Source: Halapricum desulfuricans (lineage in GTDB: Archaea; Halobacteriota; Halobacteria; Halobacteriales; Haloarculaceae). Taken from it: DNA of 64,000 bases. Each line of letters starts with the position of its first letter. Position 1 is the stretch's first letter. This document shows, one piece after another, positions 60,240 to 61,190 of this stretch. The stretch covers positions 2,108,001 through 2,172,000 of the forward strand of contig NZ_CP064787.1 of NCBI RefSeq assembly GCF_017094505.1, in the 5' to 3' direction. The notes below the pieces were generated by a model. That model made no database searches, was not told where the DNA came from, and saw nothing but the letters and a program-made list of their open reading frames with translations. The position numbers and the translations under genes were made by a program.

Positions 60240-60359
60240 ATGAGCGTGGCCCGAACGCGGTGTCCGAACTGTGGGTTCGAGGTACAGGGGGAACGGGAGT
60301 GTCCGCTCTGTGGGGCGGAACTGGCCGGCGAAGTCGACGCACAGACAGAGAACGGCTGA
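60240..60359 (+). CDS. 39-residue double-CxxC zinc-finger protein
   Basis: ATG 60240 to TGA 60357-60359. It reads MSVARTRCPNCGFEVQGER and ECPLCGAELAGE, then an acidic tail. CPNCG and CPLCG, 14 residues apart, form a minimal zinc ribbon, like the many very small zinc-finger proteins known in haloarchaea. An in-frame ATG at 60213 would add nine residues without similarity to the type. A weak TATA (tcttatgc, about 60208) suggests a leaderless mRNA starting at 60240. Confidence 0.72.
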   Translation: MSVARTRCPNCGFEVQGERECPLCGAELAGEVDAQTENG

Positions 60360-60509
60360 TCGCCCGCGTCGTATCCCTTGATCGTTCTCGGAGCGTCGGT
60401 GCCTGTCGCCCGGTCAGGTGCGTCGTTGATATGACCGGCCACGCCAGTCACCACGGGCAGTTCTTGCGACCTGCCGAGCGGTTTTACCGCGTCGAGACCT
60501 ATCGCGTCT

Positions 60510-61190
60510 GTGACCTCGCCGTACGAGGTGCTCGGAGTCGACCCGGACGCCGACGAGGCCGAACTGCTCGAGGCATACAGACAGCGGGTCAAAGAGACCC
60601 ATCCGGACCAGGGCGGCTCGGTCGAGCAGTTTCAGGCCGTCAGAGACGCCTACGAACAGCTCCGTTCCGGTGCGGTCCCCGACGACGGAACGTCGACCGA
60701 CGAACCCCGCAAGTCCGGGAGTGACGAGACTCCGAGCGAACCGGACACTCGCCCGAAAACAGTCACCGTCGAATATCTCGATTACGAGGTGCTCGACGAC
60801 CGCGGCTGGTCGCTCGCCGACGACGGCCTCTTCGAGCGCGCCCGACGTGCCGACCTCGACGCCGAGGCCCACGGCCAGTTTACCGTCGAACCGGGCGAGA
60901 CGCTGCTCGAAGCCGCCGAGAACAACGGCTTCGCCTGGCCGTTCGCCTGTCGGGGCGGGGCCTGCACGAACTGCGCCGTCGCAATCGTCGACGGGGAGAT
61001 GCCCCCGCCGGTCGGCCACATCCTCCCCGACGAGTTGATTCGCTGTGGGATTCGGCTGTCGTGTCTGACCGCGCCGATCACGAGGGACGCGAAGGTCGTC
61101 TACAACGTCAAGCACATGCCCGACGTCGCGGAGTTTCTCCTGCCGGCGAGCCGCTTCGAGAAGACGTACTCGCGTCGACAGGATCGGTAG
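60510..61190 (+). CDS. J-domain/2Fe-2S ferredoxin fusion protein
   Basis: 226 residues from GTG 60510, with ttttacc about 27 bases upstream. Residues 1-50 are a J domain (SPYEVLGVDPDADEAELLEAYRQ, HPD at 31-33, QFQAVRDAYEQL). Residues 85-226 are the halophilic plant-type ferredoxin: the acidic insert LDYEVLDDRGWSLADDG, and the [2Fe-2S] ligands Cys147, Cys152 and Cys155 (CRGGACTNC) plus Cys185 (LSC). The main ferredoxin of haloarchaea lacks the J part. The fusion suggests delivery of electrons or of the cluster protein to an Hsp70 (DnaK) partner. Confidence 0.9.
   Translation: MTSPYEVLGVDPDADEAELLEAYRQRVKETHPDQGGSVEQFQAVRDAYEQLRSGAVPDDGTSTDEPRKSGSDETPSEPDTRPKTVTVEYLDYEVLDDRGWSLADDGLFERARRADLDAEAHGQFTVEPGETLLEAAENNGFAWPFACRGGACTNCAVAIVDGEMPPPVGHILPDELIRCGIRLSCLTAPITRDAKVVYNVKHMPDVAEFLLPASRFEKTYSRRQDR

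Follow-up and report, generated by a model that had tools for sequence, protein, structure and literature searches.

A widespread haloarchaeal protein joining a J domain to a halophilic [2Fe-2S] ferredoxin, and its probable link to DnaK

Why should an archaeon carry a DnaJ-type J domain and a ferredoxin on one polypeptide chain? The question is raised by a gene in a 64,000-nucleotide stretch of the Halapricum desulfuricans genome (hereafter the window), whose product we call J-Fdx. An initial annotation, made from the letters of the DNA, proposed that the J domain could recruit DnaK to an electron carrier and pointed to HscB as a parallel. We analyzed the architecture, distribution, conservation and relatives of J-Fdx, and conclude that its probable use in the cell is to direct the Hsp70 chaperone to redox or iron-sulfur tasks.

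Architecture of the protein and its gene

The initial annotation had read the gene as a DnaJ-type HPD domain, an acidic linker and a full ferredoxin with all four cluster cysteines. This reading was borne out by Pfam, NCBIfam and AlphaFold2, and the reading frame, coordinates, strand and start proved correct (Table 1). Residues 4-52 match Pfam DnaJ (E 7e-12, 45.7 bits for a cut-off of 27.8) and, in the same frame, residues 123-189 match Pfam Fer2 (PF00111; E 9e-14, 51.6 bits for a cut-off of 21). Residues 86-208 score 156.2 bits with the NCBIfam family NF041393 "ferredoxin Fer", above its curated cut-off of 150, and all four cysteine ligands (147/152/155/185) are in place, as expected of a halophilic ferredoxin of this family. 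The nearest solved structures for residues 86-204 are the halophilic ferredoxins 1e0z (Halobacterium) and 1doi (Haloarcula), and residues 2-53 match solved J domains of DnaJ-type proteins.

Table 1 Features of the J-Fdx locus, in window positions.
Feature	Position	Strand	Remarks
TATA-like box TTTTA	60482..60486	+	28 nt 5' of the GTG start; own promoter
J-Fdx gene	60510..61190	+	226 aa from a GTG start, coordinates with the stop codon; order: J domain, linker, [2Fe-2S] ferredoxin
J domain	60510..60671	+	Residues 1-54; three helices 4-8, 16-30, 38-53; Pfam and model
HPD motif	60600..60608	+	Residues 31-33, within HPDxGGS; invariant in 85/85 homologues
Acidic disordered linker	60672..60764	+	Residues 55-85; pLDDT <50 at 57-79
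Halophilic plant-type [2Fe-2S] ferredoxin domain	60765..61145	+	Residues 86-212; Fer2, NF041393, 1doi/1e0z
Cluster ligands Cys147, Cys152, Cys155 (CRGGACTNC)	60948..60974	+	Invariant in 85/85
Fourth cluster ligand Cys185 (RLSC)	61062..61064	+	Invariant in 85/85
C-terminal tail L-x-L-P-x3-F	61134..61187	+	Residues 209-226; specificity positions 209, 211, 212, 216

The AlphaFold2 model, built from 18 homologues, assigns the three J helices a pLDDT of about 90 and most of the ferredoxin 82-95, dropping to 57 close to the cluster loop; linker residues 57-79 are disordered. The modelled ferredoxin part superimposes on 1doi with a TM-score of 0.88 by target length (Foldseek), and model helices 16-30 and 38-53 flank the HPD motif, which therefore lies between helices II and III as in a J domain. 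Only DnaJ-type and Fer2-type matches rise above the cut-off; the protein is thus laid out as a type III (class C) J protein, devoid of a G/F region, zinc finger and DnaJ C-terminal domain. Helix IV and the other DnaJ regions are absent from both the Pfam matches and the model.

The start codon and the promoter can be judged from the homologues. Of 83 distinct upstream regions, 73 have a TATA-like box between -40 and -18, usually at -30 to -26, compared with 2-7 in control windows, and the start codon is GTG in 72/85 homologues; the annotated start is therefore right and the promoter is the gene's own. A further upstream box, GCAGTTCTTG or CAGAAACTG, lies at window positions 60457-60466 (-53/-54 from the start) and recurs in relatives, namely in Haloarculaceae-like and some other genomes, where the sequences are themselves related; it may be a regulator site. 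Between purM and the J-Fdx gene, an ORF of 39 aa with a double-CxxC zinc ribbon occupies window positions 60240-60359 (+), a position kept within the genus (L021, L022, L023). A search for conserved gene neighbours found purM, hflX, guaB and rfcL to be common to the genus and none to be conserved further out; synteny was consequently dropped as a guide to function. Among the neighbours examined, no conserved one hints at a client or at iron-sulfur assembly, and no partner-enzyme gene is linked.

Distribution, conservation and origin

By our own count, which includes only matches extending beyond what a ferredoxin alone yields, J-Fdx occurs in about 212 of 292 Halobacteria genomes, and it is absent from all 241 genomes examined elsewhere in the phylum. 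The initial annotation had suggested surveying how widespread the fusion is, and these counts make it no local oddity. A scan of bacterial and archaeal genomes returned 17 full-length fused relatives, every one haloarchaeal. Presence judged by the E-value of a single protein is unsafe, so 22 weak-scoring genomes were searched again with a profile; 21 yielded a full-length J-Fdx, while one (G196) matched profile positions 1-196 only. The gene is missing from roughly a quarter of Halobacteria (most genomes of family f3, about half of those of f2, some f1 genera and a few others), where the matches are housekeeping-type or other ferredoxins only, indicating that J-Fdx is not essential to haloarchaeal DnaK or iron-sulfur biology generally.

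Most genomes with the gene carry a single copy, and the gene is present in the genus Haloferax. Some copies, again labelled "ferredoxin Fer", are located on secondary replicons of large size, in Haloferax larsenii, Halobaculum, Haloprofundus and Halocatena. A phage or plasmid origin was rejected, since no fused copy was found in phage records or viral contigs and the plasmid copies sit on large secondary haloarchaeal replicons. One viral contig (L189:439-1060; IMG/VR contig 3300000875_000006) codes for a protein with an HPDQGG J domain at its C-terminal end, 71% identical over 45 residues to that of J-Fdx. The RefSeq name for J-Fdx, "ferredoxin Fer", hides the J domain.

For conservation we used 85 non-redundant homologues. 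Their identical architecture across many genera rules out an assembly accident. L8, A14, A22, H31-P32-D33, G36, F41, A47 and the four cluster cysteines are invariant in this set, the AY(K/R) of helix II is invariant or nearly so, and the J domain is exactly 54 residues long with zero indels. Helix II of E. coli DnaJ has the basic residues R22, K26 and R27; of these, only K26 has a conserved equivalent among the 85 homologues, and the equivalents of R22 and R27 vary. Mean pairwise identity is 62% in the J domain, 62% in the ferredoxin and 16% in the linker, which ranges from 21 to 63 aa with a net charge of -0.25 per residue. Nei-Gojobori dN/dS values for 16 close pairs, rough because dS is high in some of them, are 0.04-0.24 for the J domain, 0.05-0.35 for the ferredoxin and about 0.1-1 for the linker (mostly 0.4-1, with one higher value on few sites). 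The J and ferredoxin domains are under comparable purifying selection.

This bears directly on whether the J domain is vestigial or merely a structural N-terminal extension. NCBI annotation does ignore it, and, as noted above, the protein lacks helix IV and further parts of DnaJ. Nevertheless, HPD is kept in 85/85 homologues with no indels, and dN/dS is as low as in the ferredoxin while the adjacent linker drifts; selection at this level makes vestigiality very improbable. A clear frameshift turned up in a single copy (L116, genome G008), where the frame breaks in the J domain just after HPD, by pseudogenization or assembly error.

The ferredoxin domain has a history distinct from that of the housekeeping electron carrier, which the source genome encodes by a separate gene (L057). 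A maximum-likelihood tree was built from 110 ferredoxin domains over 141 columns. In it, the 62 J-Fdx rows all fall on one side of a single branch (support 96/91), HTH-Fdx proteins join them as a sister clade (100/99), and the housekeeping ferredoxins lie across a 100/99 branch, together with UspA-Fdx and a kinase-Fdx. Orthology with the housekeeping ferredoxin thus failed: J-Fdx is a separate clade (100/99), and the housekeeping gene is present as well. J-Fdx has G149, S184, P167, H170 and P204 where the housekeeping ferredoxin has A, T, D, Q and D, respectively, and a tail that the latter lacks. One clade of J-Fdx ferredoxins, apart from the housekeeping ones, implies that the fusion arose once; the simplest reading of this tree is a single old fusion, early in Halobacteria, onto a diverged ferredoxin paralogue, followed by losses. 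In a J-domain tree (56 columns), J-Fdx falls with the haloarchaeal HPDxGG small J proteins and not with DnaJ, without firm support; its J domain looks like that of these small proteins.

The halophilic ferredoxins of known structure (1doi, 1e0z; HVO_2995/OE_4217R; NF041393) share the fold with J-Fdx, including the acidic N-terminal insertion and the four cysteines, at 44-47% identity in structural alignment with 1doi/1e0z. Unlike them, J-Fdx has an extra J domain and linker, is less acidic, and differs in its tail and diagnostic residues.

Proposed role and competing explanations

The source genome encodes seven J domains, eight Fer2 domains (that of the housekeeping ferredoxin L057 among them), DnaK and a second Hsp70. 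All of the genomes checked (145/145) have a DnaK-type Hsp70 and the second Hsp70 occurs sporadically, making DnaK the likely partner; the second Hsp70 was rejected as a dedicated one for its sporadic occurrence. This shorter Hsp70 (533 aa) is encoded divergently from a large membrane protein whose J-like domain lacks HPD; the pair occupies 1063200-1064801 (-) and 1064945 onward (+) on contig 1 of the source assembly (G000; L106, L056) and is sporadic in the class.

With the J domain under selection, DnaK in every genome checked and the cluster ligands kept, recruitment of DnaK to an iron-sulfur protein, as first proposed, is the natural reading. The wording "electron carrier" in that proposal needs qualifying: the main carrier is the product of L057, and the J-Fdx ferredoxin is a diverged paralogue, which may carry electrons, sense redox state or only bind partners. 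We give a probability of roughly 0.55 to the view that J-Fdx is a haloarchaeal J protein of type III (class C) dedicated to bringing DnaK to whatever its ferredoxin domain binds, probably under the control of its cluster. Against this view count the variable R22 and R27 equivalents, the lack of a conserved neighbour hinting at a client, and the roughly one genome in four that has no J-Fdx; a literature search also returned no experimental work on the family. DnaK binding, cluster occupancy, clients and redox gating are what we infer here. The N-terminal J domain would dock on DnaK and stimulate its ATPase, the flexible acidic linker would provide reach, and the ferredoxin domain would confer specificity by binding ferredoxin-partner oxidoreductases or other iron-sulfur clients. 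The state of the [2Fe-2S] cluster (present or lost, reduced or oxidized) would probably gate partner binding. DnaK would in this way be delivered to redox or iron-sulfur proteins for folding, repair or cluster loading, a role that has been proposed for the chloroplast CDJ3-5.

J-Fdx might instead be an electron carrier first, its ferredoxin domain serving one enzyme and its J domain only docking on DnaK or on a DnaK-bound substrate. The retention of the four cysteines, of the CRGGACxNC loop and of a redox-ferredoxin fold fits such a role, and there is a precedent in human Dph4 of diphthamide synthesis, in which a J domain accompanies an iron-binding domain and which was reported as an electron carrier, although subsequent studies in yeast failed to bear out that Dph4 binds iron or transfers electrons (PMC8153317). 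Like J-Fdx, Dph4/DNAJC24 combines a J domain with a metal domain for which electron-carrier activity was proposed, but it is eukaryotic and its CSL zinc/iron ribbon is unrelated to ferredoxin. The consistent differences from the housekeeping ferredoxin at cluster-loop, C-terminal and other positions (A149G, T184S, D167P and the tail) and the lack of a linked partner-enzyme gene leave this explanation unlikely. Still less credit goes to a self-serving, HscB-like arrangement, in which the J domain would serve solely to get the protein's own cluster loaded, by drawing DnaK to the ferredoxin it is joined to or to Suf scaffolds. Both domains do share one chain, and J proteins of the ISC system are established to assist cluster transfer; however, the housekeeping ferredoxin in these genomes has no J domain and folds all the same, Pfam detects no HscB C-terminal domain, and no iron-sulfur assembly gene is linked. 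The recruitment of DnaK to ferredoxin-domain partners thus stays our preferred reading.

Related systems and other ferredoxin fusions

HscB, the parallel first offered, is not the closest one. HscB/Jac1 of ISC assembly is, like J-Fdx, a J protein tied to iron-sulfur biology, but it has the scaffold-binding domain HSCB_C, for which neither Pfam nor NCBIfam gave a match in J-Fdx, placing J-Fdx outside the HscB family; J-Fdx carries the iron-sulfur domain itself. Closest are the DnaJ-Fer proteins, including CDJ3-CDJ5, which the initial annotation did not mention. DnaJ-Fer was defined in 2012 (Petitjean et al.) as a J domain with PF13459, and no other lineage was said to contain it (PMC3564930); these proteins (CDJ3-CDJ5, DJC76/77/82) are known from Viridiplantae chloroplasts and Thaumarchaeota (PMC3564930, PMC9407819, PMC6006212). 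In Chlamydomonas, CDJ3/4 associate with HSP70B in its ATP-bound state and carry a redox-active [4Fe-4S] cluster (PMC6006212; PMC9407819). Two-hybrid assays showed binding between Synechocystis Fed7 and a DnaJ-like protein, which cysteine mutations weakened (PMC4284462).

DnaJ-Fer and CDJ3-5 share with J-Fdx an N-terminal HPD J domain followed by a ferredoxin on one chain and, in the thaumarchaeotal proteins, a variable inter-domain region. In contrast, their ferredoxin is the bacterial-type PF13459 with CxxCxxC, kin of cyanobacterial Fed7, and unrelated to the plant-type [2Fe-2S] domain of J-Fdx. Pfam gave no 4Fe-4S ferredoxin match in J-Fdx up to E 10. Because its ferredoxin is PF00111, J-Fdx is not a member of DnaJ-Fer; it is a convergent variant of the same plan, of independent origin. 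We found no description of a haloarchaeal J-ferredoxin in the open-access literature, and subscription journals may hold one.

In other Halobacteria the halophilic ferredoxin domain also stands behind a predicted HTH, tandem UspA domains, or a Ser/Thr kinase with a winged HTH. These HTH-Fdx, UspA-UspA-Fdx and kinase-HTH-Fdx proteins resemble J-Fdx in placing the ferredoxin C-terminally after a stress or regulatory module, but are rarer and differ in the predicted nature of this module (DNA-binding, universal-stress or kinase). Five HTH-Fdx loci were noted (L114 in G033, L111, L161, L162 and L168), which are candidate iron-sulfur transcription regulators. Tandem UspA-Fdx, labelled "ferredoxin Fer", occurs at L121/L125 (Natrialba magadii plasmid pNMAG01, NMAG_RS22510), L112, L113, L155 and L159, in genomes of f3 (Natrialbaceae-like), 4/5 of which have no J-Fdx. 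The kinase fusion is a 727-aa ORF (L118) with a Ser/Thr protein kinase, a winged HTH and a ferredoxin, on a contig matching a Halomicrobium plasmid (G041 contig 2). Two tandem Fer2 domains behind a twin-arginine/lipobox-like N-terminus are encoded in the source genome (L060/L062; G000 contig 1: 2913474-2914046), in a possibly exported protein.

The recurrence of the same ferredoxin domain behind HTH, UspA and kinase modules makes a general sensing role plausible. We tentatively consider that the haloarchaeal [2Fe-2S] fold may be a plug-in redox or iron-sulfur sensor behind J, HTH, tandem UspA and kinase modules, in which case J-Fdx would be a cluster-switched DnaK co-chaperone independent of the plant and thaumarchaeal DnaJ-Fer; we hold this wider idea possible and clearly less probable than DnaK recruitment by a dedicated J protein.

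The case of J-Fdx exposes a systematic annotation problem, in that J-Fdx proteins are filed under the housekeeping ferredoxin. The role can be tested in a simple host, as the gene is widespread, mostly single-copy and present in Haloferax, and the HPD motif and the cysteines are open to point mutation. J domains have been fused to ferredoxins on at least two separate occasions, each time to an unrelated ferredoxin, and this speaks for a linkage between Hsp70 and ferredoxin that is useful and not accidental.
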